Origin: Bacillota bacterium
Lineage (GTDB): Bacteria > Bacillota > Clostridia > Saccharofermentanales > DTU023
Direction of reading: 5' to 3'
DNA length: 64,000 bases
Assembly (NCBI GenBank): GCA_029570375.1
Contig: JAKPXB010000043.1
Coordinates: 97,850 to 161,849, forward strand
Below are positions 21,011-46,031 of the stretch, piece after piece; the first letter of the stretch is position 1; every line of letters begins with the position of its first letter. Under the pieces are notes generated by a model. It searched no databases. It had not been told where the DNA came from and saw only the letters and a list, made by a program, of their open reading frames with translations. Both the position numbers and the translations under genes were made by a program.

Positions 21011-21011
21011 G

Positions 21012-28021: not shown

Positions 28022-28370
28022 TTTTTCTCTCCTCTACTTCGTCATCAAGTACCTTCCCCGCTTCCCACTCGCGGTATAGCTCCATCCAGTCGTCTATATC
28101 CATCGTGACAAGCCAGCGGCAGTGATTCTTACGGTGGAACACAGCGGGCAGGCTATCGATGCGAGCATCGCTTTTCGCTTGAGCCATCGCGTCGTACAGA
28201 TTAAGACGCTCAACGCGCTTGACCTCAATGTGGATTCCCGGCAAGCCAATCACATCCGCGTCTCCGGAGGCTCCGCTATATTGCTGCCCTCTCCTGCAGT
28301 CGTAGCCGTGCTCTCTGAGGATTCCGGCCAGCTCGCGCTCGCCGCGAGCACCTTTTGCTCTGCTGTTCAT
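28011..28370 (-). CDS. Holliday-junction resolvase / PD-(D/E)XK endonuclease
   Basis: KGARGERELAGILREHGYDCRRGQQYSGASGDADVIGLPGIHIEVKR. Confidence 0.8.
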   Translation of the reverse strand: MNSRAKGARGERELAGILREHGYDCRRGQQYSGASGDADVIGLPGIHIEVKRVERLNLYDAMAQAKSDARIDSLPAVFHRKNHCRWLVTMDIDDWMELYREWEAGKVLDDEVEERKNDP

Positions 28371-29392
28371 GGCGAACCTCCTTGAGCCGTTTCAAGCCGC
28401 GGCAAACGAAATGAGAACGTTTCGTCTTGATCGCTATAGTTTGAATCAATATCGGGAGTAAAATTGTTGCGATTGTCGCGCAGGCCACGCTTGTCGCCTT
28501 GTGTTTTCCCCTTGCTTCGATCGAACTTGCGCTGTCGATCTGCAACAGCGTCCATGGAAAATGCTTTATCTTTCTCAAGATTGTCGAGAATCGATTTCAC
28601 GTATCTCCAATTCCTCGCATTACTCGCTGCCGCTTCATTGATCGCGTACAGCATCACGTCGGGCTCCATGCCTTTTTTTTGGAGTACGTCCATGTGAGCA
28701 ATGACGATGGTTGATGGGACAGGGTCGATCTCTCTAGCGTACAAGGCGATCACACGAGACAAAGGATCGCTGTCAACATCTGGCGGATGTGAATCACCTT
28801 GCTTAACATTCTCTCGCGCACGCGCATGCGCGCTAGTACCACTACTAAGTTCAGTTCTGTTCAGTTCATTAGCATCGCTTCGCATCGATTCGCATTGCGG
28901 TTGCTTTGCGCTTGGTATGCGCTCGCTATGCGTTCGCATTGCGGTTGCACAACTGTTACATTCTTCTGCATTACGGACGCTTGCCTTTGTCGCGCCTTTT
29001 TCTGCGACCTCTTTGCGCCTTTTGTTCCAACGAGCATTGGCCGACTCTCTAGCTTTGCGCGATTTTTCTTCTGCCTCGGCATCAATGATTTTCATCCGCC
29101 TAATGAGCGACGGAGAGTAAAAGTACTCCCCGTCACGCTCAAAAAGTCCGTATTCAATTGCTCGGTCGACAAAACCTTTGATGTCGCACTTAGCAGACGT
29201 CTGTCCACGTATAGCAGTGAAAGTCATGTCACCATACGGAAGACTAAGTTCATCCTCCGGGAACATTCTTTCGAGAAGCACCCAAAATAAACCGTATGCC
29301 TCAAATCCAAACTCATTAACCAAGGCACTGATTTTTAGATCACTGAGTGCGTCAATATCGTGTACTAGGTAATAACTGTCGCCAACTGCCAT
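28367..29392 (-). CDS. Replisome organiser (DUF4373/DnaD-like)
   Basis: YYLVHDIDALSDLKISALVNEFGFEAYGLFWVLLERMF N-terminus. Confidence 0.8.
   Translation of the reverse strand: MAVGDSYYLVHDIDALSDLKISALVNEFGFEAYGLFWVLLERMFPEDELSLPYGDMTFTAIRGQTSAKCDIKGFVDRAIEYGLFERDGEYFYSPSLIRRMKIIDAEAEEKSRKARESANARWNKRRKEVAEKGATKASVRNAEECNSCATAMRTHSERIPSAKQPQCESMRSDANELNRTELSSGTSAHARARENVKQGDSHPPDVDSDPLSRVIALYAREIDPVPSTIVIAHMDVLQKKGMEPDVMLYAINEAAASNARNWRYVKSILDNLEKDKAFSMDAVADRQRKFDRSKGKTQGDKRGLRDNRNNFTPDIDSNYSDQDETFSFRLPRLETAQGGSP
28891..28950. repeat. Repeats inside the replication gene (candidate phage origin)
   Basis: ttcgcattgcggttgc at 28891-28906 and 28935-28950 with further gcg-containing copies between. 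Confidence 0.55.
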
Positions 29393-29431
29393 AATTAGCA
29401 CCTATCTTTCCTGGCATTCATTTTTGAATTT

Positions 29432-29560
29432 CTAAAAATCGAACGGTAAGCTTGTGTCGTCGTCAGCTTGACCTGTTTTCGTCGTTGTTGTCTCGACGCG
29501 ATCGTCCGCCTTCCGCGTCTCACAGAATTCGACCTCGTTGACAATGATCTCTGTCGTTTG
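29432..29560 (-). pseudogene. ssb: Remnant of ssb: C-terminal tail only
   Basis: Frame reads QTTEIIVNEVEFCETRKADDRVETTTTKTGQADDDTSLPFDF*; typical SSB end, no OB-fold upstream. Confidence 0.65.
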
Positions 29561-29914
29561 TCATCTCGCATACGCGTCAAGGCTCATCTGTACCGGCTTG
29601 CGATTGACCTTGAGCCAATGCTCGATGGCTTTAACTGTCTGCAATCTTTCTGTCGCCTGACCGCGCATCATGAGCATGTAGCGCTCAGCTTCGGCAATGT
29701 CAACCGGGTCGTTCTCGTCCGGGATAAAATAGCCTCCGGATGACATGGAAACGATCGGGTGTCCGTATTCTCGAAGCTGCCTGATGTATTCTTGCGTCTG
29801 ACGCTCGGACACACCGGCCATTTGCGCAACGTCGCGCAGATTCCTCGCATACTTGCTCCCTTTCGGGATGCAACGGATGATCAGCTTACAGTGATTGTTA
29901 GGCAATTCAAGCAT
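29561..29914 (-). CDS. Helix-turn-helix DNA-binding protein
   Basis: LRDVAQMAGVSERQTQEYIRQLREYGHPIV. Confidence 0.6.
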   Translation of the reverse strand: MLELPNNHCKLIIRCIPKGSKYARNLRDVAQMAGVSERQTQEYIRQLREYGHPIVSMSSGGYFIPDENDPVDIAEAERYMLMMRGQATERLQTVKAIEHWLKVNRKPVQMSLDAYAR

Positions 29915-29931
29915 AAGTTCCTCCGCCTTTC

Positions 29932-30852
29932 CTACCCGAAGAACGCCTGTTCGATATCGATTTGGTCTCCCGCGTCGAACGGCAACGGCCCTTCTTCCGC
30001 TTCAGCAGCATCAGGGATAAACATAGGCTCTTTTGTGTAGGGTGAAGTCTCTTCTTCGGCCGGAGTCACATCTTTGAAGATGGCATCTTCGGAGGATTCG
30101 ACGTAATCGACAGACCCGTCATCACGGATCGCGCCCATGTCGCTCGAGAAAGCCTGCTGCATCTCAATAGACATCAAGCCCCATTTGCTGATGAGCTGCC
30201 GGAGCATCGTTTTTTGTGCCATCGCGTCAAAGTTCTTGCTCCAGAAAGTGTATGCGCGGTTGTTGGCCAGATCAGAAGCGTAGCCTTGGCTGTACATCTT
30301 CGCGTGGGCGATCATCTGTTCTTTGCTCCAATAGAGCTCTTTTCTGAAGCCGTTCAGAAGCTCAAAATAGGCGTAATACCCGATGGTCTCAGCCTTTTCT
30401 CTTGCGAGAGGATCCAAGATCGCTTTGAACTCTCCCTTCTGACGGAATGGATCGTAGCTCACCAGTTCGCCTTCCTTGACACAGATCACGTCGATGTCTC
30501 GATACTGTCCTGACCGGATCGCGAGCTGGATGTATCCCTTATAGCCCAACTGGAATTGAGCAACTTTCATTCTTCGCTTGTTGTCGTTGTACGGCACCAT
30601 GTAAAACTGCCCCAACTGCGGTGACGGGCTGAGCTTCAATGCCTCTCCCAACAGTGCGGCCGACAGGATCGACGAATAATCGCATTGAGCCAATTGCGGG
30701 TTCGTGCCGACAGCGGTCACGATGGAAGTAATGAACCGGTCGCCATCTTTGCCGGCAACGATGTCGTAAACCTTCTGTTTAACTGCTGGCAACGCCATGA
30801 ACGTTGAAAAAGACTGTTTCTGTGTCGCGATTGCATTTCTGTTGTTTGCCAT
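29932..30852 (-). CDS. recT: RecT-family single-strand annealing recombinase
   Basis: SIVTAVGTNPQLAQCDYSSILSAALLGEALKLSPSPQLGQFYMVPY. Confidence 0.93.
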   Translation of the reverse strand: MANNRNAIATQKQSFSTFMALPAVKQKVYDIVAGKDGDRFITSIVTAVGTNPQLAQCDYSSILSAALLGEALKLSPSPQLGQFYMVPYNDNKRRMKVAQFQLGYKGYIQLAIRSGQYRDIDVICVKEGELVSYDPFRQKGEFKAILDPLAREKAETIGYYAYFELLNGFRKELYWSKEQMIAHAKMYSQGYASDLANNRAYTFWSKNFDAMAQKTMLRQLISKWGLMSIEMQQAFSSDMGAIRDDGSVDYVESSEDAIFKDVTPAEEETSPYTKEPMFIPDAAEAEEGPLPFDAGDQIDIEQAFFG

Positions 30853-30854
30853 GA

Positions 30855-31736
30855 TTATTTGTCCTCCTTAATCTGTAAGTAAGAGATTTTATTTACTTGT
30901 AAGAATTTCGACAGCTGCATCAGCTGATCGCGTGTGCCGGTAACCTCGAATCGAAGCGTGTAGAGTCGAAGCTTTTCTTCTTCTTTCGATTCTTCCTTCA
31001 GCTCTTCTTTCTTCGCTTTCCCGGCCTCTTCAATAAGCTTCGCTTGCGCTTCGCGCTCGGCGGCTCTGCGCTCTTGCTCCGCTTGCCGCTCGGCTTCAAA
31101 ACGCGCTTTCTGTTCGGCGGTTTCCTTAAGTTGCTGTCCTTTGGCAAGTGCCTGTTGCAAGTCAAGTGTCTGACCGAGAACCTGACGCATCTCAAAAGCG
31201 TAAGGGCTCCCCATTTCGTCAATCACCTTGAGAGCCTCACAAACGCGATTTAACGCGTTATCGATCTCCTCAGTAATCTGTGACATGGATTTGCTTACAT
31301 TGCCGTATTCGGCTTTTTCGAGGCTCTCCCAGGCAATGAATCCCGTGAGATTTAACTCTTCCGCTTTTTCGTCGAAATAGGCCTCGCATTCGGCGAATTT
31401 CTCTATTCGGCTTTGCTCGTCATAGGACTTGATCTGTTTGTCGATGGCTTCGATCGGTTCGTCGACAAGGGCCGTTAGTTCTTTTACCTTCTTCTCAAAA
31501 TCGAGATACGGCGTCATGATCTGATTTTTGACTTCTTTGCGCTTGTCCTCGATCGCTGTTCTGAAACGGCGCAGATCGGCGAGTGTGCGTTTGCCGTCTT
31601 TGACGGTTTCAGGTGTAAAAACCAAGTGTCTGTATTTCTCGAGTTCGTTCGTGAGAGCTGTTTTGAGCTCGTCATGATTCCACTCAATCGCTTTCACGAA
31701 GTCTTCAGGTGTTGGGGAATAAATCACTAATTCCAT
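30855..31736 (-). CDS. DUF1351 family protein
   Basis: Between RecT and YqaJ exonuclease; TPETVKDGKRTLADLRRFRTAIEDKRKEVKNQIMTPYLDFEKKVKEL. Confidence 0.75.
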   Translation of the reverse strand: MELVIYSPTPEDFVKAIEWNHDELKTALTNELEKYRHLVFTPETVKDGKRTLADLRRFRTAIEDKRKEVKNQIMTPYLDFEKKVKELTALVDEPIEAIDKQIKSYDEQSRIEKFAECEAYFDEKAEELNLTGFIAWESLEKAEYGNVSKSMSQITEEIDNALNRVCEALKVIDEMGSPYAFEMRQVLGQTLDLQQALAKGQQLKETAEQKARFEAERQAEQERRAAEREAQAKLIEEAGKAKKEELKEESKEEEKLRLYTLRFEVTGTRDQLMQLSKFLQVNKISYLQIKEDK

Positions 31737-31758
31737 TAAGTTGTTCTCCTTTAGCTAA

Positions 31759-32409
31759 TTAGATAGGCGGCAGCTTGAGAGGCGGCCGCGTCTTGCTTTC
31801 GACATGCGACCAAAAGCGAATCTCCGCACGGAGAAGGGCCTTCAGGTCGTCGATATGTGCTTGTCTTTCGAATGTGTAGTGTCTCGTCGTGAGGCGGATA
31901 TCTCCCTGCCAGTCTGTCTTGAGTTGGGCTTTCAGAATTGCGTACTCATATCCCGTGACCAGCAGATAGTGCATGATCTGGACAAAGTAGTTGTCCGGCA
32001 CTCGGTCATGCCATTTCTCGCGTTGCATGGATTGAAGGATGGATGTCGTCTTAATCTCAAGGACGCCTTTTCGCCCCTCCGTATCCGTCAGCTCGCCGTC
32101 AAGGCTTGCCTGCATCCACGGAAGGCGCTTGTTTCGCAGCAACTCATTCTTTCGATAATGAACCCTGTACTCCGGGAAATCGAGCTTGAAAAGTTGCCGG
32201 AGGCTCCCTTCTGCATCGTTGCCGTATTTCACTGCCTCTTCATTGCTGATGTCCGGAGCTTCCCTTAAGCCGACCTTCTCTTCCCAGAGATCGTCCGATG
32301 TGCGCCAAGGATTCATGCCGACGATGCATGAAGCGTCGCTACCGCCAATGCCTTTACGGCGCTGAGTGAGCCAGTCTTGACGAGATGTGCATTTAATCCG
32401 CTCGAACAT
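31759..32409 (-). CDS. YqaJ-like viral recombinase / exonuclease
   Basis: RRKGIGGSDASCIVGMNPW...SLDGELTDTEGRKGVLEIKTT. Confidence 0.9.
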   Translation of the reverse strand: MFERIKCTSRQDWLTQRRKGIGGSDASCIVGMNPWRTSDDLWEEKVGLREAPDISNEEAVKYGNDAEGSLRQLFKLDFPEYRVHYRKNELLRNKRLPWMQASLDGELTDTEGRKGVLEIKTTSILQSMQREKWHDRVPDNYFVQIMHYLLVTGYEYAILKAQLKTDWQGDIRLTTRHYTFERQAHIDDLKALLRAEIRFWSHVESKTRPPLKLPPI

Positions 32410-32623
32410 TTCCATCGCTCTTTTCAATCGACTTTAAAAGCCGTAACGTATTGCTCGCAGGAAGGTATGCCGGCTCCCTGTAGGCCGGATTACGCCCGTA
32501 CGTTGAGCCTAGAAGGCAATAACGCAACACTTTGGCGGTCTTAATGTCTCCCTCGGCAACCGCGTCCTCGTACGCCCACTTGCAACGTTGGGCGATCCAT
32601 TCGGGACTGTCATTCCTTCGCAT
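32393..32623 (-). CDS. Small phage protein
   Basis: MRRNDSPEWIAQRCKWAYEDAVAEGDIKTAKVLRYC; GGAAGGAG RBS. Confidence 0.5.
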   Translation of the reverse strand: MRRNDSPEWIAQRCKWAYEDAVAEGDIKTAKVLRYCLLGSTYGRNPAYREPAYLPASNTLRLLKSIEKSDGNVRAD

Positions 32624-32918
32624 TGAACGCTCCTTCCGTCTTGAGCGCAACCAGCCCGGCGATCACGGCGTTTATCGCCGTCACCAACGACACGTTGAAC
32701 AGCCCTTCCGAGATGCCCACGCCAGTGAGCATCTCGTGATCGAGCTTGCCGCCGAGGATAAACATGAGTAAGCAACCTAGGCCTACCGAAATCCTCGCCA
32801 GCGTGACAAGCGGGTCGCGGCATGGTATGATGGTTGTAGCCTTAGGGGCTAAACCATCAGGTTGGAGAGCGGCGTAATTGCTCGTTGAGCCGCTCTTTTT
32901 TGTTCCTGAATGTTTCAT
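32610..32918 (-). CDS. Small membrane protein
   Basis: One or two TM segments; N-terminal part overlaps candidate antisense RNA. Confidence 0.4.
   Translation of the reverse strand: MKHSGTKKSGSTSNYAALQPDGLAPKATTIIPCRDPLVTLARISVGLGCLLMFILGGKLDHEMLTGVGISEGLFNVSLVTAINAVIAGLVALKTEGAFNAKE
32838..32901 (+). ncRNA. Candidate plus-strand antisense small RNA with intrinsic terminator
   Basis: GTGACA-N17-TATGAT (32803-32831) upstream; AGAGCGGC...GCCGCTCT + T6 at 32866-32901. Confidence 0.5.
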
Positions 32919-33157
32919 TCAAAAACGCTCCTTTCTGTTTGTGATATATCTGCCGGGAATACCCGGTGAAGATCTTTGTGCGGTACGCCGAGGTAATCCA
33001 TCACGGCGTACATGTCCGGTAATGACCAAGGAACTCTGCCGGCGAACCTTGCTTCAATGGCAGACTTCGACAGCTTGGTCGGCTTGCAGAGATCTGTCTG
33101 GCGATACCCCCGCATCCCCAGAATCCCCCAGAGATAGTGGAAGTTCTTCTTGCGCAT
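32915..33157 (-). CDS. Helix-turn-helix regulator
   Basis: MRKKNFHYLWGILGMRGYRQTDLCKPTKLSKSAIEARFAGRVPWSLPDMYAVMDYLGV. Confidence 0.65.
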   Translation of the reverse strand: MRKKNFHYLWGILGMRGYRQTDLCKPTKLSKSAIEARFAGRVPWSLPDMYAVMDYLGVPHKDLHRVFPADISQTERSVFE

Positions 33158-33215
33158 GGTTGCTCCTTTCTGTGTGTTATGCTGTCCTCACCACCAAGCG
33201 GGGGAGGTAAGTGTT

Positions 33216-33512
33216 GTGAAATTTTCAAAGCAACGAGACCTATTGTTGAAAAAACTTGTAAAACACTATTCAATAACAGGGGTTAAAGATCACGATGCCG
33301 AATCTCTCATGCTTCTTTCTCCGGGGCTGACTTACGATCATCTTGAAGATCTTTGCATTTCTCTTCAGAAAGATGGTTTGGTTCACATCGATTTTGCGGA
33401 TGATGAGATTTATCTTTTGGTCTTGGATGTTCAGGCTCTTCGTCAGATTGATGAGCAATCGTGGATTCGGAAGGGGTACCAGGTTGCAAAAGAGATTCGC
33501 GAATGGCTTTAG
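33216..33512 (+). CDS. Unknown protein, opposite strand to early operon
   Basis: GTG start after GGGGGAGG RBS: VKFSKQRDLLLKKLVKHYSITGVKDHDAESLMLLSPGLTYDHLEDLC... Confidence 0.45.
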   Translation: MKFSKQRDLLLKKLVKHYSITGVKDHDAESLMLLSPGLTYDHLEDLCISLQKDGLVHIDFADDEIYLLVLDVQALRQIDEQSWIRKGYQVAKEIREWL

Positions 33513-33738
33513 CCACAAGATATTTCTTTTGGTTCTCCGCAAGTGCGGAGTTTTGTAGCCGTTCTAAGCTGTAGAGCATAGCTCTGTTAGCGTCCATGAA
33601 TTGATATTTTGTGATTTGTCTAAACCCGTTTTTAAGAAGCCAATCTCGCTTTTCCTTATCAAGCTCTTTGAAAAGATCACGCCCATTCAGCTCGTCAATC
33701 AGTTCTTGAGTCGGAATATCTGCTAATTTCCCTTTCAT
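33307..33738 (-). CDS. Unknown early phage protein
   Basis: MKGKLADIPTQELIDELNGRDLFKELDKEKRDWLLKNGFRQITKYQF...; C-terminal half overlaps plus-strand ORF. Confidence 0.5.
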   Translation of the reverse strand: MKGKLADIPTQELIDELNGRDLFKELDKEKRDWLLKNGFRQITKYQFMDANRAMLYSLERLQNSALAENQKKYLVAKAIRESLLQPGTPSESTIAHQSDEEPEHPRPKDKSHHPQNRCEPNHLSEEKCKDLQDDRKSAPEKEA

Positions 33739-33801
33739 CTTCCTCTCCTTCCTCTCTCCTTGCCTAATAACGCTGGCGGTGCTTGTGTTAGTTTGTTGCG
33801 G

Positions 33802-34158
33802 TTATGTTTCTTCTCGCTCCGGAATGCTTGGCTTCCCTTTCTCGATGGGAATTTCTATGCAAGTTCCACCTCTGTCCCAATTGTTATATCCATATCTCGG
33901 ATCTTTTGTTTTATAAAGATTTTGAAAGTCATACTCTTTAGACTTGTCATCCATTCCCTCTATAACGTCTAGGCGATAAAACGAATAATTTTCTCCGTGA
34001 TTGTTGAAATCTTCTTGCATTCCTTTGTTGGTATGCTTGTTTCTACGCAAAGAATTCAGGTGACTCTTAAGTCTTTCTTGCAATCTGCAAGTAGAGCCTA
34101 TGTACATTTTCTTTGTAACGTTATGTTTGATTGCGTAAATTTCTCTTGGGAATTTCAT
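33802..34158 (-). CDS. GIY-YIG endonuclease domain protein
   Basis: IYAIKHNVTKKMYIGSTCRLQERLKSHLNSLR. Confidence 0.8.
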   Translation of the reverse strand: MKFPREIYAIKHNVTKKMYIGSTCRLQERLKSHLNSLRRNKHTNKGMQEDFNNHGENYSFYRLDVIEGMDDKSKEYDFQNLYKTKDPRYGYNNWDRGGTCIEIPIEKGKPSIPEREET

Positions 34159-34178
34159 ATGTTTAGCCTGCTTAACAT

Positions 34179-34409
34179 TTAACCTAAAAAAATATCGCTT
34201 ACTTTTCGGTCTAAAGCTTTTGCTATTTTGGTTAGTGTCTTTGTCGTGGTTGTCGTAATTGCCCCGCTTTCGAGCCCCGCAATTATAGTTCTTGATACGC
34301 CTGACTTTTTAGCCAACTCCTCTTGAGTTAACTTCTCTTCTTCTCTTACTTCCTTTAATTTAAAAAGCATTTGTTTCTTCTCGCCTCCCTTGTTCAACTT
34401 GCTTAACAT
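34179..34409 (-). CDS. Cro-like XRE regulator
   Basis: LTQEELAKKSGVSRTIIAGLESGAITTTTTKTLTKIAKALD. Confidence 0.8.
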   Translation of the reverse strand: MLSKLNKGGEKKQMLFKLKEVREEEKLTQEELAKKSGVSRTIIAGLESGAITTTTTKTLTKIAKALDRKVSDIFLG

Positions 34410-34505
34410 GATACTATACTATCATTTTCAGCTTGTCAAGTAGATTAAACAAAATTCTTGACAATTGTTTAGTTTGTTATACAATTGTAATAAAAGGAGG
34501 CAAGC
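34410..34505. promoter_or_regulatory. Divergent lysis-lysogeny switch promoters/operators
   Basis: TTGACA...TACAAT toward repressor; TTGACA-N17-TAGTAT toward cro-like gene; ACAATTGT at 34461-34468 and 34481-34488. Confidence 0.65.
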
Positions 34506-35186
34506 GTGCATTTAGGCATATTAATAAAACGATACAGAGAAACACATGGCCTTTCCATGGATGACTTTGCTAAACGATCAGGATTGAGTAAAGCCTATAT
34601 TTCCATGCTTGAAAAAAACAAAAACTCCCGATCGAAAAAGCCAATAGTACCGTCACTTGAAACGATAAAATCAGTATCGGATGTGATAGGTATTGATTTT
34701 AATATAGTAATCGAAATGATAGATCCAGATACTAAAGTAAGTGTATCTAATAAATCTATCGACCCTACCGACTACACCAATCATGGATTGCTCCCAGTCA
34801 CCACCCGCAAAATCCCAGTGATCGGGAACGTCCATTGCGGCAAGCCGGAGTTCGCCGAAGAAGACTACCTCGATATTGTCGAGTCGGACATCGACGCCGA
34901 CTTCGCCCTGCGCTCAAAAGGCGACAGTATGATCGGCGCAGGCATCGAAGACGGAGACCTCGTGTTCGTCCGGAAGCAGCCCACAGTAGACAGTGGCGAG
35001 CTTGCAGTCGTTTTATTGGGCGATGACGCCGCCGTTAAGCGCGTCTATAAGTACGAGACATACATCACCCTCAACGCGGAAAACCCTGCCTACGCCCCGA
35101 TTGTGTTGCGTGAGGGCGATGATCAGGAGGCATCCATTTTAGGCAAGGTGGTAGCGCATACGCATTACTATAAGGAGAAAAAATAA
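34506..35186 (+). CDS. CI-like repressor (XRE HTH + S24/LexA peptidase)
   Basis: HTH MDDFAKRSGLSKAYISMLE; SKGDSMIGAGIEDGDLVFVRKQPTVDSGELAVVLLGDDAAVKRVYK. Confidence 0.92.
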   Translation: MHLGILIKRYRETHGLSMDDFAKRSGLSKAYISMLEKNKNSRSKKPIVPSLETIKSVSDVIGIDFNIVIEMIDPDTKVSVSNKSIDPTDYTNHGLLPVTTRKIPVIGNVHCGKPEFAEEDYLDIVESDIDADFALRSKGDSMIGAGIEDGDLVFVRKQPTVDSGELAVVLLGDDAAVKRVYKYETYITLNAENPAYAPIVLREGDDQEASILGKVVAHTHYYKEKK

Positions 35187-35245
35187 AATCGTCATTATTA
35201 GGGGAGATAAGTATAGGCAACAAAAGCAACATAACAAGAAATCAT

Positions 35246-35274
35246 TTGACAACACAAATTTATTTGGTTACCAT
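35246..35274 (+). promoter_or_regulatory. Sigma-70 type promoter of abiF-associated RNA
   Basis: TTGACA-N17-TACCAT. Confidence 0.75.
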
Positions 35275-35280
35275 ACATCT

Positions 35281-35352
35281 AGATAACTTGGTTGCGAGTG
35301 CCGTCTCGTGATCGTCGATTGAGTCGTATGGTTTAGCCCATACGGCTCTTTT
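35281..35352 (+). ncRNA. AbiF-associated small structured RNA
   Basis: Begins ~7 nt after the -10; hairpin GCGAG/CTCGT; 11-bp terminator stem GAGTCGTATGG/CCATACGGCTC followed by TTTT; located right upstream of Abi_2 gene. Confidence 0.7.
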
Positions 35353-35381
35353 GATTTCACGAAAAAAGGAAGCAACTTTCA

Positions 35382-36383
35382 ATGCAGATACTTGACAAAA
35401 AATTTTTAACATACGATCAATTGATAGAATTACTGCGGAACCGCGGCCTGATAATCAACGATGAGAAACGAGCAAAATTAATCATTGCGTCTGTCTCATA
35501 TTACGACTTGGTTAATGGCTACAAAGAAATCTATTGTCAACCTGATTCAGTTTACGAGTTGTTTGAAGAAGGAACCACTATCGAAGATGTATACTCTTTT
35601 CATCTGCTAAACACAGGTGTCCAGAATGTTCTTTTTAAGTATTCTATGTATGTGGAGAACACTTTTAAGAATGCTCTCGCATATGTCATTTCTAAGAATA
35701 TTAGTGAGGACGAATTCTATTATTTGAGTGAATCATTTTATCAAAGGAAGCGCGGCATATACAAAAAGACCAAGCGCACATTAAACACTCTTAATAAATT
35801 ATGTGACCCGAACAACAAAAAGGTAGAGAACCCCACCCGATTCTATATAGATAATCACAACCATATCCCCCCTTGGATTCTTTTCAAGAATGCAACGTTT
35901 AGCACATGCATCGATCTGTTTTCATGCCTTCGTACGCGAGACAAACGTGAAGTTGTTGAAAACTTGATTAGCATAGAAATAAACGAGGATTACCGCAACG
36001 ATTTTGTAATGGACGCTTTGACAACCATTAGAAAATTCCGTAACGCGATTGCTCACAACTTGAAGTTTGTCACTTTGCGCATAAGCAAACAGCAAAGACT
36101 TTCCTTTTCTCAATTGATACCTGAATTTGGTGGAACTCTGATAAATGTATCAAAAGACAGTGGGGCGCAGCGTGGCATAGGTGATCCATATTCGATGATT
36201 TTATCATTGATCTCTCTGTTGTTGGATAAGAAATTAGTTGAATCGCTATTCTACGACCTGTCACATCAGTTTAAGGATATTAGCGATAGCAACGCATACT
36301 CTAGATATTGCACAATTACAGGTATCCCGGAAGACATATTGCAGAGAGGTGTTATGTATATTGATAAGATAAAAAACGGATAA
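35382..36383 (+). CDS. Abi_2 family (AbiD/AbiF-like) HEPN protein
   Basis: KKFLTYDQLIELLRNRGLIINDEKRAKLIIASVSYYDLVNGYKEIY; HEPN R-X4-H motif RNAIAH. Confidence 0.88.
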   Translation: MQILDKKFLTYDQLIELLRNRGLIINDEKRAKLIIASVSYYDLVNGYKEIYCQPDSVYELFEEGTTIEDVYSFHLLNTGVQNVLFKYSMYVENTFKNALAYVISKNISEDEFYYLSESFYQRKRGIYKKTKRTLNTLNKLCDPNNKKVENPTRFYIDNHNHIPPWILFKNATFSTCIDLFSCLRTRDKREVVENLISIEINEDYRNDFVMDALTTIRKFRNAIAHNLKFVTLRISKQQRLSFSQLIPEFGGTLINVSKDSGAQRGIGDPYSMILSLISLLLDKKLVESLFYDLSHQFKDISDSNAYSRYCTITGIPEDILQRGVMYIDKIKNG

Positions 36384-36390
36384 TAAAACA

Positions 36391-36480
36391 AGCCGCTTCC
36401 CGCACTCGCCAAAGTACTTAGGAAGCGGCCACAGATCAGCCCGGAGGCTTACACTGATTGTATCATAGGCCTCCGGTGTT
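36391..36480 (+). terminator. Inverted repeats/terminator between Abi gene and integrase
   Basis: CCGCTTCC...GGAAGCGG and CGGAGGC...GCCTCCG. Confidence 0.5.
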
Positions 36481-36494
36481 AAGGAGGTTTTTCC

Positions 36495-37628
36495 ATGTCA
36501 AGACAGAATCGTCCGCTCGGCATACCAAAATGGAATGAGAAACGCAAAGAATGGCGGTTAGGCGTCCGAGATCGAGGATGTCGCACGACCGTCACCAGCA
36601 AGAAAGAATCAGAGCGCGCAGGAAAGGCGGAATGTTACAGGAAAGCTTACGCATGGATTGACGCTTACGACGCTCCGGAGAATAAGCGATTCATTGATGC
36701 CTGGGAAGAGTTCATCGATTGGTACACTTTGAAAAACAAGATCACGTCTGCAAAGCAAATCGAAAGGCGAGGCAAAGCTCATCTCGTACCGGCATTCAAG
36801 GGGCATAAGGTCGCAAAAATCACGAAAAGAGAATGGCAAGCCGTCATCGATAATGCCTTTGCGAACGGCGCGAAGTCTATTGTAACGCTGAAAGGAATTG
36901 CAACAACGATCACCACGTTCTGCAAGTGGTGCGCTTCGAGAGGTTACCTCCGAGACATCGATGTGCCTTTGTACTTCAGCTACCCGATCGCAGCCACGAC
37001 CAAGCCGAAGAAAATATTACAGCCTGACCAAATGCGATTACTCTTTTCGGAAGAAGTAGAGGATGAGAATTTTTATATCTTCTGCTTTCGCTTCTTGGCC
37101 GTGACGGGCTTGCGAAGAGGGGAATTATGCGCGTTGCAGAATACGCGGGACTTTGACGGGGAGTATATCACAATCAATGAATCCATTAGCCACGATTTTG
37201 ACATAACGGACGGCAAAACGAACGCAGCCGAAAGGCGAATGATGCTGACGGACATCGCCTTGGAACAAATAGAACGCCATCAGAGACGGGCAGGGAAGGG
37301 GCGATATCTCTTTTGCAACGAAGAGGGCAGGATGATATCCCCGAGAGTTCTCGGCAATCATTGGCGCAAATGGAGGGCATTACACGACATTGACGTAACA
37401 CTCCACGAGTTGAGACACACTTTTATTTCTTACAGTCGATTAAAGACAACACTTGATCTGGAATCGCTTAAACAAATCTACGGGCACTCGGAGAACATGG
37501 ACACGGATAAAGTCTACGTCCACGGCATAATCAAAACTCCGGAAGAGATCGCGGAAGAAGAAAAAAAGGCGCGAGAAATAGCTTCGCAACTCAACACTGT
37601 GTTCGAGATCGTCTCCTCGCGAAAATAG
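36495..37628 (+). CDS. int: Tyrosine recombinase (phage integrase)
   Basis: TGLRRGELCAL, LHELRHTFIS, YGHSENMDTDKVYVH catalytic motifs; adjacent to attR. Confidence 0.95.
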   Translation: MSRQNRPLGIPKWNEKRKEWRLGVRDRGCRTTVTSKKESERAGKAECYRKAYAWIDAYDAPENKRFIDAWEEFIDWYTLKNKITSAKQIERRGKAHLVPAFKGHKVAKITKREWQAVIDNAFANGAKSIVTLKGIATTITTFCKWCASRGYLRDIDVPLYFSYPIAATTKPKKILQPDQMRLLFSEEVEDENFYIFCFRFLAVTGLRRGELCALQNTRDFDGEYITINESISHDFDITDGKTNAAERRMMLTDIALEQIERHQRRAGKGRYLFCNEEGRMISPRVLGNHWRKWRALHDIDVTLHELRHTFISYSRLKTTLDLESLKQIYGHSENMDTDKVYVHGIIKTPEEIAEEEKKAREIASQLNTVFEIVSSRK

Positions 37629-37694
37629 CAAAAAAGACGTACAAAACGACACACATGCGCTTGGAACGCCTGATACAACGACATCGGATGCACG

Positions 37695-37711
37695 TCCCGC
37701 TCTCTCCGCCA
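37695..37711. repeat. attR core
   Basis: tcccgctctctccgcca. Confidence 0.9.
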
Positions 37712-37917: not shown

Positions 37918-38008
37918 GGAGAAGTACCCAAGAGGTCGAAGGGGACGGTTTGCTAAACCGTTAGTGGGGGTAACTCCAGCGAGGGTTCAAATCCCTCCTT
38001 CTCCGCCA
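37918..38008 (+). tRNA. tRNA-Ser (anticodon GCT)
   Basis: GGAGAAG...CTTCTCC acceptor, anticodon loop TTGCTAA, T-arm GAGGGTTCAAATCCCTC, encoded CCA. Confidence 0.96.
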
Positions 38009-38114
38009 TCCCAAGGCAGCGACTGGGGTTAACTGACAACAGAGCACCAGTTAAGGCGACCGGTTGTTTGGAAAACTGCTGTAAGCGCAATGTGTATTGC
38101 GCTTCGGCCGATAA

Positions 38115-38174
38115 AAAGCCGGAGAGATTTCAAGTTTCAGTGGTTTTTAACTTCTCTCTCCGGCTTTTTCTCAT
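38115..38174. terminator. Long hairpin terminator
   Basis: AAAAGCCGGAGAGA...TCTCTCCGGCTTTTT. Confidence 0.7.
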
Positions 38175-38666
38175 AATTAAACACGCCAAAATAGACGTGT
38201 CTGGTTTCTCGTTTTATAAGTTCTTTGATTTCTATGCAACCGGAGCTAACCTAAAACTTCTTCGGTGCCTACCAATGTTGCCGATGGCAGCCAGCTGACC
38301 CACGCGAGATCGCAGAAAGGCAATCCTCTGTTTTTCGGAAGCCGCTGATTCAGACCGTGCAGAGCACCACAAGGCGGTTTAGATTTTCAAGTTTCAGTGG
38401 TTTGAAGACAATATAATGACTTCACTGGGATATGTCAAGATTTTCATTGAGATCGCGACTTGAATAGAGCAAAGAAGCTGGATGCTAAAGCAATCTGGAC
38501 AGTGAGAAGTACGGAATGACTAGTTTAATCTGACATATTAACCGTCAGAGGTAAAATTGCAGAAAAGTTTCGATGTTGACTTTTATTATTTTTCTAATTT
38601 GACGTAGTATTCTCGAGCAAAACCGTAGTATAACATTGAAGGCAAAAAAAGGAGACAGTACAACGG

Positions 38667-39229
38667 ATGTCGATTCAGGATGGCGAAATCATCAAACTGT
38701 TCTTTGAACGTTCAGAACAGGCCATACGAGAACTGGAGACAAAATACGGACATGCTTGCTTTAAGCTCTCGTTCAATATTCTGGGCGACAGACAAGATGC
38801 GGAGGAATGTATTAATGATGCGTATTTGGGAGTATGGAACGCGATTCCACCGACAAAGCCGGATCCGTTGTTGACTTTTGTTCTGAAAATTGTCAGAAAT
38901 ATTTCATTAAAAAATACTGGAAAGAAAGAGCTGAAAAACGAAATAGCGCCTATACCATTTCAATTCATGAGATTGAGTTGTTTATCGCAACACCGAACAC
39001 AACAGAGAGTGAAATCGATGCACGAGAGCTGGCAAAGATGATTGAGGAATTCTTGGACATGCAAACGACAGAAAATCGCGTGATCTTTGTGCGCCGTTAT
39101 TGGTTTTCAGACTTTTATAAGGACATAGCAAACCAGATAGGACTTTCAGAAAAAGCTGTTTCTGTTCGCCTTACTCGCATCCGTCGTAATTTGAGAGAAT
39201 TTTTAATTCAAAAGGAGATATTAGTATGA
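38667..39229 (+). CDS. ECF-type sigma factor interrupted by one frameshift (or expressed by -1 frameshifting)
   Basis: ORF 38667 gives region 2 (KLSFNILGDRQDAEECINDAYLGVWN); ORF 38834 frame gives region 4 (IANQIGLSEKAVSVRLTRIRRNLREFL); frames join at A AAA AAT 38909-38915. Confidence 0.75.
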
Positions 39230-39981
39230 ACGCAGAAGTTTTTTCAGACGCAATGGATGTCATTGATATCAAATATGTTGAGGAAGCTATGTGTTATCGG
39301 AGAAAAAAGATATCTGTACCGTGGATCAAGATTGGTGCAGTAGCTGCTGCTTGTATTTTGCTAGTGGGTACCTTCACCATCCTTAACTTTAGCAAGCGGA
39401 ATCAGCAAGGAGTCTTTGAAACTGAACCAAGGAGAACATTGCCATCGGAAAAAGTTGAGGATACAAAAACCACCATAGATAGCGAAACCAATCCAGGTAT
39501 CTCTACGGGTGAATGTGCAGCTGATATGCATCGTCCGGCGGGTTATCACCCCCGGATCGGCTCTGCGTTAGCGCTGAAGCTTTCACTACACAAAGAATCG
39601 CCTGAAAAGGTTTACGACGTAGTGATTCCTTGCTTTCATCGCTTTGGAGAAGACGATTGCATAGTCGAGAGGTTGAGTGATCGTCTCGATACAACATCTT
39701 GGAGGCGTTGGGCTCGCATTCAATGGCCAGATCGCGGTATAGAGGAAAAATATCACGCTCAGCTTACTCTCGATCAAATAAACGTCGTTGTGGAAGCCGG
39801 TCTTTCGTGTTTCTATATTGGATCGGGGAAAGGCAATCCAACTGATATGAATTTCGATAATCCAAAGGGCATTGAGACGTACTGTGAGCTTGTGGGAGAT
39901 ATGTACACTTTCGCCTCCGATGGGAGTATCGTACACAAGCCAGATCTTTTGGCAGAAGGACTAGTCGAGCTTGAACCGTAA
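39226..39981 (+). CDS. Probable anti-sigma/regulator with one TM segment
   Basis: Overlaps sigma stop; cytoplasmic N-term, WIKIGAVAAACILLVGTFTIL TM. Confidence 0.6.
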   Translation: MNAEVFSDAMDVIDIKYVEEAMCYRRKKISVPWIKIGAVAAACILLVGTFTILNFSKRNQQGVFETEPRRTLPSEKVEDTKTTIDSETNPGISTGECAADMHRPAGYHPRIGSALALKLSLHKESPEKVYDVVIPCFHRFGEDDCIVERLSDRLDTTSWRRWARIQWPDRGIEEKYHAQLTLDQINVVVEAGLSCFYIGSGKGNPTDMNFDNPKGIETYCELVGDMYTFASDGSIVHKPDLLAEGLVELEP

Positions 39982-40098
39982 AACTCAAATCTATGAGCTT
40001 CAACGCCTCTGCCTATTGCCAATGGATGGGAGAGTTCTAAAGCTCCCGCCCATTATCAAGAGTAATTACAAAGGATTGACCAGAAAGAGATAACGAGA

Positions 40099-40275
40099 AT
40101 GAAAACAGATAGCAAACTCAAAGTCAGAACGAGATGGTTAACACTAGATTTAATCATCACCGCCTTGTTGTTCGCTGGCGCCTGCTCTCCACAGACTGTA
40201 GAAAAAGAAGTAAGCACAACAACGACGACAACCGCAACGACAGCGAAGCAGAAGACGACAACGGTAATTCTTTAA
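40099..40275 (+). CDS. Short lipoprotein (58 aa)
   Basis: MKTDSKLKVRTRWLTLDLIITALLFAGACSPQTVEKEVSTTTTTTATTAKQKTTTVIL*, lipobox LFAGAC. Confidence 0.5.
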   Translation: MKTDSKLKVRTRWLTLDLIITALLFAGACSPQTVEKEVSTTTTTTATTAKQKTTTVIL

Positions 40276-40598
40276 TGCGCTCACTAATGCCCAAAAAACT
40301 TCCTTATTTGGCCTTCAAATGAAGAGTTGCACAGTTTTCGAAGGGGAAATGGGAATGGGGCACGATCATGCGATTCGCTTCGTCGACTAATATGAGCTGA
40401 TACCGGCGAGTATGCATCGACTATATTTAAACAAGGTTCAGCTCAGTCTCTCCGGAGAGAACAATAATGCCACAACATGAAGGGGCTGTCTCAAAAAGAA
40501 CGCCCCTTCATTACTCACGATCAGGTAATATAATTTGTCTGGATCAAATTGCCCTCTACTTACAAGCTTTAGCTCACTTCAGTTTCTACAACAATAGT

Positions 40599-40934
40599 TT
40601 ACCCAAAGTATGTATGAGTTTCATAATTAATATTATGTGTATCACAAAACTCTTGAAACAACTTGCAGCCATCTAAACCAGAAAAATATTTAACTAGTGC
40701 CTCTTCAAGGGTTTCACCTTTGAGTAGAATAGCCAATAATAACGTATTCTTCTGATTCAGAGAATAGAAGCGCTCATATTCAGAATCTCCAAAGAGATCT
40801 TCTGCGAGCATACTGAATTCTTGAACAGAAATCATTAGCTTCCCGTTGCTCACTTCTGCCGTTATATAGCTTTCAAGATCCTTACTCTTATAGTTGCAAA
40901 GATATAATTTGGGAAAGTCTTTTACGTTCACCAT
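40599..40934 (-). CDS. Unknown protein
   Basis: Complete 111-aa ORF in its own transcription unit. Confidence 0.45.
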   Translation of the reverse strand: MVNVKDFPKLYLCNYKSKDLESYITAEVSNGKLMISVQEFSMLAEDLFGDSEYERFYSLNQKNTLLLAILLKGETLEEALVKYFSGLDGCKLFQEFCDTHNINYETHTYFG

Positions 40935-41075
40935 TCTACGTCCCCTCTTTATTGGAAATCTATGCCTGCGTTATCAGACTAACTTCAATTTTATAAACTG
41001 TGTAAAGCAATTAGATTATGGATCAGACTTTTGTCCCAGTGTTATTCAGTCTCAGTTTCCAATCAGAAAACAATA

Positions 41076-41942
41076 TTATAATAGTACCAACCGACCGGGC
41101 TTATACCCGTTTGGAGTCTTAATTTGATCTAAATACAAAGTCCGTTTTTCGTATTTTCCGAAAGACTTTTTTTTACTGATAAAAACTTCCCATCCCTCTT
41201 TATCGTCTTCAGGATTATTTGGATTGTGAATAAAACGGAATCGTCTCCCATCATTGTCAACGATGACAACACCTGCAACGTTAATATTATCTTTGGTTCT
41301 TGTCCCCCATGGTATGTTTTGAAATGATGCAACCATTTCAAAACCAATCTGTCTTAAGACCGCATAAACCGGATTTATTTTTGGTGGTTTCCCATTCTCA
41401 AGTGCCCCTAGAACGTCACCATCTGTATTTTTACCAATTTTGTACCCGAGCGAATTGTATTTTAACAAATTCGCGAAGTTTACTTCTAGTTTAGGGTCAA
41501 CGTGGGCACCACCATCTTGATCTGCTACATATCGGACAATGTCTTTACGAGAAAAAATATTCTTCTTGTCGTCAAATATTATTTCGTTCCACCAATCGTC
41601 AAACTTAAGGTAAACCATCTTCTCAGGTGCAGTGTTTAGTAGCGGTGAATAATGAATGTTGCCTGATTCCATTACAATTGAGAGAAGCGGGAAACTAGAG
41701 ACAAGATTTGTCGGAGAATAATCGATCAAAGTGGATGCAAATAATCCTCTTTTTTTATCTAGTTGTCCTAATAGCGACTGAGAGCGTCTGCTATCATGTG
41801 CTAATACTCTTAATCTTATTGCGATGTTCTTAGCTTGCACTTCTTCGCCAGCGTCATACGCTTTACAGGCACTTAACAACAAGTGCATTTGTTCCTCAAA
41901 ATTCTCTAGCAGTTCTTTATTTGAAAGGCGATATTTTGCCAC
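41076..41942 (-). CDS. Unknown 288-aa protein
   Basis: Good coding composition; FDDWWNEIIFDD...SRKDIVRYVADQDGGAHVDP motif. Confidence 0.55.
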   Translation of the reverse strand: MAKYRLSNKELLENFEEQMHLLLSACKAYDAGEEVQAKNIAIRLRVLAHDSRRSQSLLGQLDKKRGLFASTLIDYSPTNLVSSFPLLSIVMESGNIHYSPLLNTAPEKMVYLKFDDWWNEIIFDDKKNIFSRKDIVRYVADQDGGAHVDPKLEVNFANLLKYNSLGYKIGKNTDGDVLGALENGKPPKINPVYAVLRQIGFEMVASFQNIPWGTRTKDNINVAGVVIVDNDGRRFRFIHNPNNPEDDKEGWEVFISKKKSFGKYEKRTLYLDQIKTPNGYKPGRLVLL

Positions 41943-42303
41943 GATAATATTCTCAGACTCTCATTTTTACTATAATTCTTTGATTACGAGACATTTATTA
42001 TATCACCTAAACATCATTATTAACCAATGTATAATTGCATAAAGCAGTAATGTCTTTCTCTGGTGGACAGACGACGGTGTTGTATTTTTGAGGAATTACG
42101 ATGTTAAATGTGTAAGGTTCTGCATAAACGCGATGTTGTACTTCGTAAAATTGGAACTTGATACCTTATTTGAACGCTCATGCAGACTAATCCCAATCGT
42201 TTGGAATTTATTAAGCAATAACGTAAAATTGGATCAAGAAGTTCCGTGCATATCATCCAATAATGGATCCTTTGTATAAGCGCTCAGAAGGAAGGATAAG
42301 GAA

Positions 42304-43743
42304 ATGATTCAAGAGCTTGTACCTAATACAATTGAGTATTTTCAAACCGCTAAAGAAAATCAATTCTTTGACCGTAAAAGTGCACGGATCAAGCCTGATG
42401 ATATTGTTCGACACCTCGTTGCTTTTGCGAATGCAAGCGGCGGGACTCTGGTCATCGGTATCGAAAACGATGGACGCATAACAGGTTTTCGGGGAAATGG
42501 CGCTCACCAAGCAGATGAGTTTAAGACCGTTGCCGTCAAGCGACTTTTAGAAACGCCGATTACCTTTCAAACTTCTGAGATCGCTGTCACAAATGAAAAG
42601 GGCGAAAAGGATGTTGTACTTGTGCTGGAAGTAGCAACCTCTCAAAATAAAGTGATCCAATCTTTTGATCGCGAAGTCTATTTACGCCAGGGAGGTGAAA
42701 GCGTCAAGCTGAGTTATGAACAACGCACACAGCTCCTCTACGATAAAGGGCAGCGATATTTTGAAGATGAAGCGGTAGATCGTTCTTCGATAGATGATGT
42801 AGATGAGAAAGTGATGAGTCTGTACCGAAAGCACATGAGGCTACCAAACAAACCTGCCAGTGAGATTCTCGAAGCTAGGGGCATGCTTGTTGATGGCAAG
42901 TTGACAACTGCCGGAATTCTTCTCTTTGGGAAAAATCCGACGAAATATCTACCACAGGCCAGACTTCGCTTTATCCGCTATGACGGGATGTTCGCCGAGA
43001 CGGGTAAAAGACTTAACATTGTTAAAGAGCAGACTTTTGACAGTGCGATACCAATCATTATTTCGGAAGCTAGGAATTTCATTAACACACAGATGCGGGA
43101 GTTCCAATATCTCAATAGCGAAGGCATTTTCGAGAGAATGCCGGAGTATCCGGAATTTGCGTGGTTTGAGGGTATTGTAAATGCACTAACTCACCGCAAC
43201 TATTCGATGAACGGTGAGCATATCAAATTTATCATGTTTGATGATCGGATTGAAATCTATAGCCCCGGACTTTTGCCCAATATTGTAACGGTTGAGAACA
43301 TCATGCACACTCGCTACTCAAGAAATCCTAAGATTGCGAGGGTTCTCTCCGAATTTGGTTGGGTTAAGGAAATGAACGAGGGTGTCAAGCGTATTTATTC
43401 TGAAATGCAGAGTCTGTTCCTTAAAGATCCGATCTATTCGGAGCCGGGTCATCAGGTGCTTTTAACGTTGGAGAATAATATTTTGAATCGACATTTAAGG
43501 ATTACCGATTCATTAATGAAAAAATTATCACCGGAGATTTTCAATGAATTGAATGGCGATGAGAAAATAATTTTGCGATATACTTTAGCCAATGGTCAAA
43601 TTACCTCCTCGGAGGCAGTCCGATTAACAAAACGAAGTAGAGTAACTGCACAACGCACTTTAAGGAACCTGGAAAGAAAAAACTTTTTGACTTGGCATGG
43701 AACTAGCAAGAATGACCCTACGCAGCACTATACCTTAGATTAA
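42304..43743 (+). CDS. AlbA_2 (Schlafen-type) / RecG-like ATP-binding transcriptional regulator
   Basis: FDRKSARIKPDDIVRHLVAFANASGGTLVIGIENDG; ALTHRNYSMNGEHIKFIMFDDRIEIYSPGLLPN. Confidence 0.88.
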   Translation: MIQELVPNTIEYFQTAKENQFFDRKSARIKPDDIVRHLVAFANASGGTLVIGIENDGRITGFRGNGAHQADEFKTVAVKRLLETPITFQTSEIAVTNEKGEKDVVLVLEVATSQNKVIQSFDREVYLRQGGESVKLSYEQRTQLLYDKGQRYFEDEAVDRSSIDDVDEKVMSLYRKHMRLPNKPASEILEARGMLVDGKLTTAGILLFGKNPTKYLPQARLRFIRYDGMFAETGKRLNIVKEQTFDSAIPIIISEARNFINTQMREFQYLNSEGIFERMPEYPEFAWFEGIVNALTHRNYSMNGEHIKFIMFDDRIEIYSPGLLPNIVTVENIMHTRYSRNPKIARVLSEFGWVKEMNEGVKRIYSEMQSLFLKDPIYSEPGHQVLLTLENNILNRHLRITDSLMKKLSPEIFNELNGDEKIILRYTLANGQITSSEAVRLTKRSRVTAQRTLRNLERKNFLTWHGTSKNDPTQHYTLD

Positions 43744-43761
43744 ATATCTGTTCATCATAGG

Positions 43762-43914
43762 TTTACAGTAACTTTGCAGTAGTTTGCAGTAAACGCGTAA
43801 TGACAGAAGATGCATCTACCGATAGACGGATATTTAAAGCAACACGAACCCTTGCATGAACTTAAAAGAAATCGCATCTCAAACTTTGCAGTAACTTTAC
43901 AGTAGTTTACAGTA
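43762..43914. repeat. Two clusters of three ~10-bp repeats TTTRCAGTAr
   Basis: tttacagtaactttgcagtagtttgcagtaa (43762-43792) and tttgcagtaactttacagtagtttacagtaa (43884-43914). Confidence 0.85.
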
Positions 43915-44261
43915 AGGTGAAAACGCGAAGGAAAGAATATAGCCTCAAACGCGCCTACAGCACGGGTTTCAGCTTTCGTGTCCGCCTTTTAAGCAGTTTC
44001 GAGTAATGATCGAGTAACTGCGCTATCAACCGACACAATTCCCTCCTTCTCCGCCACAAAAACTACCCGTTTTGGGTAGTAATAGGGATCCCGACCTGGT
44101 TGGGAAGAATAGCGTAGACCTTTTTGATTTGATTTGTCGGGGTCTGCGCTGTTTTTTCCTAGGTTATTAGGGAGATCAGCGCCATTATTCCAAAAACAGC
44201 ATGTAAATCCCGTAATTTCAGGCGCTTTCAGTTCCTTCAGCTGGCTCTATTTGTAAAACTA

Positions 44262-44371
44262 TCCGCAAAATTAATATAATTGCGGATGAATATTTAAAAA
44301 CAGATCTTGACTTCTCGGCTCCCATCGCTTATGTTTTAGAAAAGTATCCGCAAAGTAAGATAAAATGCGGA
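44262..44371. promoter_or_regulatory. Two AbiEi operator-like inverted repeats
   Basis: TCCGCA-N13-TGCGGA at 44262-44286 and 44347-44371. Confidence 0.75.
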
Positions 44372-44401
44372 CTTAAATCTGAATCGAAAGGCGGTGGGAG
44401 C

Positions 44402-44941
44402 ATGAAAAACAGAGCCGAGTGCCTTGCGAAATATGGCTCGGACTATAAGATCCAGCAGAAAGTCGATGCGGGTGAGTTATTCCGTGTGGGCAGGGCATTG
44501 TACTCGGAACACAAATATGTGCCGGAACTTGCTGTGCTTGCCTACCAATACCCAAATGCTGTAGTGACCATGCATAGCGCATTTTATCTCCACGGCCTGA
44601 CGGATGTAATCCCGGATGAATACGATCTGGCCACAGACCGTGATGCTGCCAAGATCCGGGACTCTAAGGTGAAACAGTATTTTAACCCATCGTTTTTTTT
44701 TGAACAGGGAGCAGAAACGGTTGACTACCAGGGCTATCCGATACGGATGTACAACAAAGAACGGATGCTGATCGAACTTCTACGCTACAAGAGCAAGCTG
44801 CCCTTTGACTTTTACAAAGAAGTGCTCCTTAACTACAGAAAGATCATGCCCAAGCTTGATATGCAGGCCATTCAGGATTATGCCTATGAAGCACCCAAGA
44901 GCGGAAAGATCATGGAAACATTACAGATGGAGGTACTGTAA
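44402..44941 (+). CDS. Type IV toxin-antitoxin AbiEi-family antitoxin
   Basis: YKIQQKVDAGELFRVGRALYSEHKYVPELAVLAYQYPNAVVTMHSAFYLHGLTD. Confidence 0.88.
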   Translation: MKNRAECLAKYGSDYKIQQKVDAGELFRVGRALYSEHKYVPELAVLAYQYPNAVVTMHSAFYLHGLTDVIPDEYDLATDRDAAKIRDSKVKQYFNPSFFFEQGAETVDYQGYPIRMYNKERMLIELLRYKSKLPFDFYKEVLLNYRKIMPKLDMQAIQDYAYEAPKSGKIMETLQMEVL

Positions 44942-44943
44942 GG

Positions 44944-45744
44944 ATGAACCTGGCTGAACTGGCATCTGAAATCAGGAGTGACGGTTACACGGCGATCAAT
45001 GCAGAAGCGAGGGTGTGTCAAGATATCGTTCTGAAGGCTATCGCGAACAGCAGTCTTAGCCGAAATGTCACCATCAAGGGCGGCATAGTGATGAGGAGCA
45101 TCAGCGGAGATAGCAGACGTGCCACGCAGGACATGGACTTCGACTTCATCCGGTATTCCCTGTCGGACGATTCAATTCGGAGTTTTATCAAGAAGGTGAA
45201 CTGCATTGATGGGATCACGATAGAGATTGAGGGAGAAATAGACGAACTTGCCCAGCAGGAATACAGCGGCAAGCGTGTCCATGTAATTATCCGGGACGAT
45301 ACTGGGCATGCATTCCACAGCAAAATCGACCTTGGTGTCCATAAGCAGGTACAGATCGAACAGGATGAATACTGCTTCGATGTGTGTCTGGATGAGGTTG
45401 GAGCAAGCCTTCTCATCAACTCCAAGGAGCAAATTTTCACCGAGAAACTGAGGTCGCTCCTTCGGTTTGGGGCGGTGTCCTCAAGATACAAAGATGTGTA
45501 CGACCTGTGCTATCTGGCAGACCTGGTAGATAAAAATCGCCTGATGGAATGCATGCATACCTATATTCTTGACGATCCCGGTATGAGGGAGAATGACATG
45601 GCTGCTGTTCTGAAAAGGGTCAACAGGACTTTCTCAGACCGTCTGTATCGCCAGAATATAAACCGCTCGAACAGGTACAATTGGCTTGGAATCAAATCAA
45701 CGGATGCATTTGATAAGATTACAGGTTTCCTGGAAACACTATAA
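44944..45744 (+). CDS. AbiEii/AbiGii-family nucleotidyltransferase toxin
   Basis: KGGIVMRSISGDSRRATQDMDFDF; SKEQIFTEKLRSLLRFG. Confidence 0.9.
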   Translation: MNLAELASEIRSDGYTAINAEARVCQDIVLKAIANSSLSRNVTIKGGIVMRSISGDSRRATQDMDFDFIRYSLSDDSIRSFIKKVNCIDGITIEIEGEIDELAQQEYSGKRVHVIIRDDTGHAFHSKIDLGVHKQVQIEQDEYCFDVCLDEVGASLLINSKEQIFTEKLRSLLRFGAVSSRYKDVYDLCYLADLVDKNRLMECMHTYILDDPGMRENDMAAVLKRVNRTFSDRLYRQNINRSNRYNWLGIKSTDAFDKITGFLETL

Positions 45745-45949
45745 GAACTCAAAGTTCAAAGGTGTGCCTAGACAATAGGATGGGGAGAAGTGGGTAGTAT
45801 GCTTAGCAATAAAAATCTTTCAAGAATGGGAACCAGGGGAATTTATGAGCCCCGTTAGAAGTGCAAAGTGCTGATAAACCTGGTATAGCTATGTTTCAGC
45901 TTTTTACGAGGTGAGTAATTTTGAGAATTCCCCGTTCTCCGCCACAATT

Positions 45950-45992
45950 TGTCCTGAAACTCCTTTGCGCGAGGGGTTTCAGGCTTTTTTTG
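45950..45992 (+). terminator. Intrinsic terminator
   Basis: CCTGAAACtcctttgcgcgaggGGTTTCAGGcTTTTTTT. Confidence 0.75.
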
Positions 45993-46031
45993 TGCTCAAA
46001 AGGCGACCTTCCAGTGCTGGCTGACATTTAG

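Follow-up and report, generated by a model that had tools for sequence, protein, structure and literature searches.

Two tandem integrase-less islands at the 3' end of a tRNA-Ser(GCT) gene, probably gathered by stepwise accretion

The accretion of integrase-less islands at tRNA sites is a well-known route by which genomes gather cargo. In streptococci, cis-mobilizable elements (CIMEs) are described that measure 1.2-13 kb in S. salivarius and number 215 at a single tRNA-Lys site of S. agalactiae (PMC7563491, PMC5704250), and among the ssrA islands of Dehalococcoides 15 are without integration genes (PMC3146451). Tandem integrase-less islands are thus already well described, and the locus reported here is a further case. 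In the window (the whole stretch of 64,000 nucleotides that was analysed) two segments, A and B, lie one behind the other at a tRNA-Ser(GCT). We read them as two successive tRNA-targeted integrations by elements that lost, or never carried, an integrase, and consider the chance that this is correct to be roughly three in four.

The target gene, an intact tRNA-Ser(GCT), occupies 37918..38008 on the plus strand (ARAGORN 37918-38008; Rfam tRNA) and ends where a first-pass annotation of the window had placed its end, at 38008. Three copies of its 3' end are present on this strand: the tRNA-side core copy within the gene (37988-38008), the middle copy, which is the junction of A and B (44036..44056), and the distal copy (45924..45944). 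With the last 21 nt of the tRNA as reference, the middle copy matches at 20/21 and the distal copy at 16/21 positions, the last 10 bases of the latter being exact. The last 17 bases of the tRNA, TCCCTCCTTCTCCGCCA, occur exactly at 37992-38008 and 44040-44056 and match 45928-45944 at 14/17 positions. Directly 3' of the copy in the tRNA stands TCC, where the distal copy has CAA, and the 13-mer TTCTCCGCCACAA is thus confined to the middle copy (44047-44059) and the distal copy (45935-45947), exact in both. Both repeats, the 17-mer at 44040-44056 and the 13-mer at 45935-45947, had been pointed out in the first-pass annotation, and both copies stand above the shuffle level: after dinucleotide shuffling of the 8-kb segment (100 rounds), the best match to the 21-nt core was 13.2 on average and attained 16 in a single round and 20 in none. 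The distal copy is not attributed to chance because it is also placed exactly at the junction that the congeners predict. The core copies are real and their coordinates correct.

The empty site can be seen in G001, G005 and G006, three other species of the genus, whose tRNA-Ser(GCT), 97-99% identical to that of the window, runs directly into a terminator, with CAA[TC]TTGTCC directly 3' of the tRNA and then a hairpin with a T-run. The same terminator sequence (CAATTTGTCC, hairpin, T-run) starts at 45945 in the window, and the insertion therefore spans 38009-45944, that is 7,936 bp between the tRNA and its own terminator. This displaced native terminator (45945..45995, plus strand), which adjoins the tRNA directly in the three congeners, has a hairpin with a fold z of -3.63 and is 74-77% identical to theirs over 70-81 bp. 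The first-pass annotation had made its proposal depend on empty sites in related genomes, and at the tRNA 3' end the three congeners have one. Homology to the congener sites stops after about 70-80 bp, with none past the terminator, and the genes further right do not lie near the congeners' tRNA in the contigs examined. By inspection, A and B are both absent behind 25 further tRNA-Ser(GCT) sites in the family. The gene directly to the right of the island (46647-49556, plus strand) encodes a large surface protein containing several SpaA prealbumin-like domains, which has paralogues or relatives in congeners.

Segment A (38009..44056, 6.05 kb), with core copies at both bounds, has a GC content of 41% as against 53% in the right flank. 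It starts with a strong hairpin with a T-rich tail (38110..38172, plus strand; an inverted repeat, fold z = -4.35), by which A probably provided a substitute terminator for the tRNA. The gene for an ECF sigma factor (38667..39229, plus strand) has a frameshift near 38910 and intact orthologues in G001 and G005; the adjoining gene (39226..39981, plus strand), which is next to the sigma gene in G001 too, encodes a membrane-anchored sigma-factor partner of 251 aa without a Pfam match. This pair recurs away from tRNA-Ser(GCT), at 92% in G001 and 82% in G005. Two ORFs on the minus strand, of 111 aa (40599..40934) and 288 aa (41076..41942), follow; the 288-aa protein has no relatives in viral contigs. 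A further gene (42304..43743, plus strand) encodes an AlbA_2 / HATPase_c_4 protein (Pfam) of 479 aa; in viral contig L106 a 56% relative of it adjoins an integrase gene. At 38476-38535 the window has a member of a 60-bp repeat, GCTGAATGCCAAAGTAA..TGGACAGTGAGAAGCGCGGG..CCAGTTTAATCTGGCA, which is dispersed through the genus, at many sites as well as at contig ends, and is probably a mobile-element end.

Clustered direct repeats beside the core occur in attachment regions. Beside its right core, A has six TTTRCAGTAR repeats in two 31-bp clusters (43762..43915, plus strand) as well as two CGAGTAA repeats, which look like integrase arm sites and are candidates for those of a lost integrase of A. 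These right-end repeats and the L106 relative beside an integrase gene fit, without proving it, the loss of an integrase from the right end of A. Across 38 family genomes the 20-mer TTTRCAGTAACTTTRCAGTA occurs only in these clusters and at C13:3604. Also at this end of A, a block of 118 bp (43853..43970, plus strand) is 100% identical to C13:3572-3689 (L051 3572-3689), inside a second prophage on that same contig, whose integrase gene lies beside a gene that we take to be guaA; the identity may reflect a recent transfer or a misjoin. As attachment region of this second integrase (C13:4288-5526) the block was rejected, since it lies about 600 bp upstream of the integrase gene, inside the prophage, and its position is taken by a different gene in L124, a related phage. 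The integrase itself ends about 80 bp before the guaA 3' end, so that its site is not tRNA-Ser(GCT), and it was likewise rejected. G+C-rich stretches at about 37760-37910 of the window, between prophage and tRNA, and at about 3455-3571 of L051, adjoining the 118-bp block, share TCCGGACAACGGC and ATGCCGGT(C)AACGCGG(G)AGCCG and look like a repeated element; they have no Rfam match and fold no better than shuffles. The stretch that directly precedes the tRNA (37740-37917) was rejected as an RNA element, its fold being no better than that of shuffles (z = -0.82).

Segment B (44057..45944, 1.9 kb, GC 46%) likewise has core copies at both bounds and, at its tRNA-side end, a very strong hairpin with a T-run (44105..44157, plus strand; fold z = -6.8), probably again a replacement terminator. 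Its genes, both on the plus strand, encode homologues of the AbiEi antitoxin (44402..44941, 179 aa; PADLOC AbiEi, E = 2e-77) and of the AbiEii nucleotidyltransferase toxin (44944..45744, 266 aa; Pfam PF08843, E = 2.7e-18; PADLOC, E = 1.8e-123). Two copies of an inverted repeat, TATCCGCAAA..TGCGGA (44260-44286 and 44345-44371, plus strand), are candidate AbiEi operators, and phage contig L103 has the repeat conserved in front of its AbiEi gene. The AbiE family has a bicistronic AbiEi-AbiEii operon with inverted repeats in the promoter (PMC7319586); B has both, and its pair is a predicted phage-defence toxin-antitoxin of AbiE type IV. The closest AbiEii relatives found sit in three tailed-phage contigs (IMG/VR L103, L104, L105), where the AbiE pair lies within the tail genes, directly ahead of the tape-measure gene, and the best relatives in the same bacterial order reach 61%, for which reason the AbiE cargo of B probably came from phage. 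The DNA similarity of B to these contigs is limited to the operators and the two genes. As extra genes in L103-L105, the AbiE pairs are possible defence cargo against competing phages.

Elsewhere in the order, 2 of the 15 AbiE loci examined lie downstream of serine tRNAs, both in another family: about 0.9 kb downstream of tRNA-Ser(CGA) in G138 (L143 3092-5389) and about 5.6 kb downstream of tRNA-Ser(GCT) in G109 (L146 106-7143). No core copies were seen at these two loci, which were therefore rejected as proof of mobility and give no more than a hint that B might be a minimal 1.9 kb defence cassette, integrase-less from the start and moving between serine-tRNA sites via the integrases of others. 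We hold this to be decidedly improbable.

Neither segment contains a recombinase, as the first-pass annotation had observed, be it of the tyrosine (PF00589) or the serine (PF00239) type, and a tblastn search with three integrases found no integrase remnant in them (best E about 3). The genome has three PF00589 proteins (the integrase of the prophage in the window, that of the second prophage by guaA, and an Xer-like protein) and two serine recombinases (PF00239), both on another contig; these counts refer to a draft genome of 51 contigs, so that a further integrase may lie elsewhere in the genome. No parent element with A's repeats was found in IMG/VR or in 37 other family genomes. In the genome_contigs set these repeats have seven chance-level matches, without detectable integrase, and in 188 genomes of the order there were none beyond tRNA ends. 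The left junctions of A and B have no match in IMG/VR, and DNA relatives were found neither for A in phages nor for B in plasmids.

Under the history that we propose, tRNA-Ser(GCT) would twice have received an element by site-specific integration at its 3' end, which built the array of tRNA, A, B and terminator. Each time, a tyrosine integrase would have recombined this end with its counterpart on the element, leaving the tRNA intact and the displaced copy to mark the end that lies away from the tRNA (44036-44056 in A, 45924-45944 in B). The first to enter would have been B and its AbiE pair. A, whose cargo is the sigma pair plus the AlbA_2 protein, would have followed at the tRNA, pushing B away, and each element would have brought its own terminator. 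The integrases may subsequently have been lost, or may have been supplied from elsewhere; A and B, now integrase-less islands, would be movable only with help, e.g., by capture through an incoming element that uses the same site. Both segments have at their start a strong hairpin resembling a terminator, which one would predict had A and B each at some time adjoined the tRNA. These tRNA-side terminators and the native terminator, now displaced, are consistent with an entry of B before A. The difference in GC content between A and the flank was counted for integration. Counted against it were the match of only 16/21 in the distal core of B, the lack of an integrase remnant and of a parent with both A's repeats and an integrase, and the end of congener homology at the terminator. 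The stepwise accretion put forward in the first-pass annotation is the simplest reading of two segments that each end in a core copy, and its weak point is that neither segment was found in any genome without the other. That annotation had also regarded the segments as passive or satellite elements; integrase loss is at least as good an explanation.

Its further suggestion, that the neighbouring prophage might have mobilised A and B in trans through its integrase (36495-37628), was not supported. The prophage (383..37711) sits in tRNA-Ser(TGA), about 300 bp away, and its target is related, the 3' end of a serine tRNA, with a 17-bp core (at 366 and 37695) that agrees with that of tRNA-Ser(GCT) at 14/17 positions. 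The prophage core differs at 3/17 positions, however, and the two cores belong to two different tRNAs, each element being at its own. Moreover, the prophage has a 14-bp repeat, ACAAAACGACACAC, once near each end (488 and 37641), a placement that suggests candidate arm sites of its integrase. At up to two mismatches this repeat is absent from A and B, which has other repeats in the case of A, and CAAAACGACACACA is found nowhere else in the window at the same limit. If ACAAAACGACACAC does represent the arm sites, A and B are not substrates of this integrase. The prophage integrase was accordingly rejected as helper, and we give this mode of transfer hardly any credence. The gene adjoining the prophage integrase gene (35382-36383, plus strand) encodes an Abi_2/AbiD-like abortive-infection protein, and the prophage has Rfam matches above gathering scores to skipping-rope RNA (22869-22962, minus strand) and DUF3800-I RNA (26330-26440, minus strand).

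Two other explanations concern the array as a whole. A and B could be one composite element that arrived in a single integration, the middle core being an internal relic of earlier accretion in another host. Composite transfer of a CIME and an ICE in tandem has been described (PMC5704250), and the failure to see A or B singly agrees with it. Against it stand the GC contents of 41% in A and 46% in B, the different core matches of the two segments and the terminator of its own that B has adjoining the middle core; since these differences are also compatible with accretion elsewhere, they only weaken the composite explanation, which we regard as rather unlikely. Alternatively, the distal copy and its terminator might be the stump of a second serine tRNA gene, and A and B in part a deletion scar. 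The tRNA-Ser(CGA) of a congener (G011) has a similar 3' end and terminator, which leaves room for an origin from another serine tRNA. However, what the resident tRNA-Ser(GCT) lacks is exactly the terminator of its congeneric orthologues, just 10 exact tRNA bases are left at the supposed stump, and a better copy lies in between, so that we consider a stump very improbable. Two successive integrations at tRNA-Ser(GCT) remain our preferred reading.

Among known systems, the CIMEs of streptococci, including those at tRNA-Lys(CTT) of S. agalactiae (PMC7563491, PMC5704250), likewise stand in tandem behind a single target gene, at its 3' end. Like them, A and B are bounded by copies of the target end (A by the 20/21 copy, B by the middle and 16/21 copies), possess no recombination genes and, among ORFs of at least 110 aa, no conjugation or mobilisation genes, and at 6 kb and 1.9 kb are within the CIME size range. 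CIMEs derive by deletion from an ICE or IME and can be mobilised in cis once an incoming element has captured them. The cargo of A and B points rather to phages, with relatives in phage contigs, and there is no functional ICE or IME in tandem, nor was a relic of one found in either segment. The ssrA islands of Dehalococcoides (PMC3146451) also form a series separated by copies of the target 3' end, some of them integrase-less, but their target is the tmRNA and their helper a serine recombinase in neighbouring islands, whereas the array described here holds no candidate helper. By this comparison the locus appears to work like CIMEs and ssrA islands; strict membership in the former would require descent from an ICE or IME. 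Phage satellites of the PICI type are a poorer match, as A and B have no integrase, replication or packaging-interference genes. The AbiE loci of L103-L105 have the same gene pair, gene lengths and operator as B, with AbiEii 70-79% identical, but lie between phage tail genes and not between tRNA core copies. The known picture of tandem islands is unchanged by this locus, and a live trans-acting integrase would be needed to alter it. To the described cases it adds clear tRNA-targeted accretion, with a toxin-antitoxin of phage type as cargo, in a little-studied genus with small genomes, three other species of which display the empty site. Its displaced native terminator and one terminator per segment are useful to locate and order insertions when the integrase is gone.
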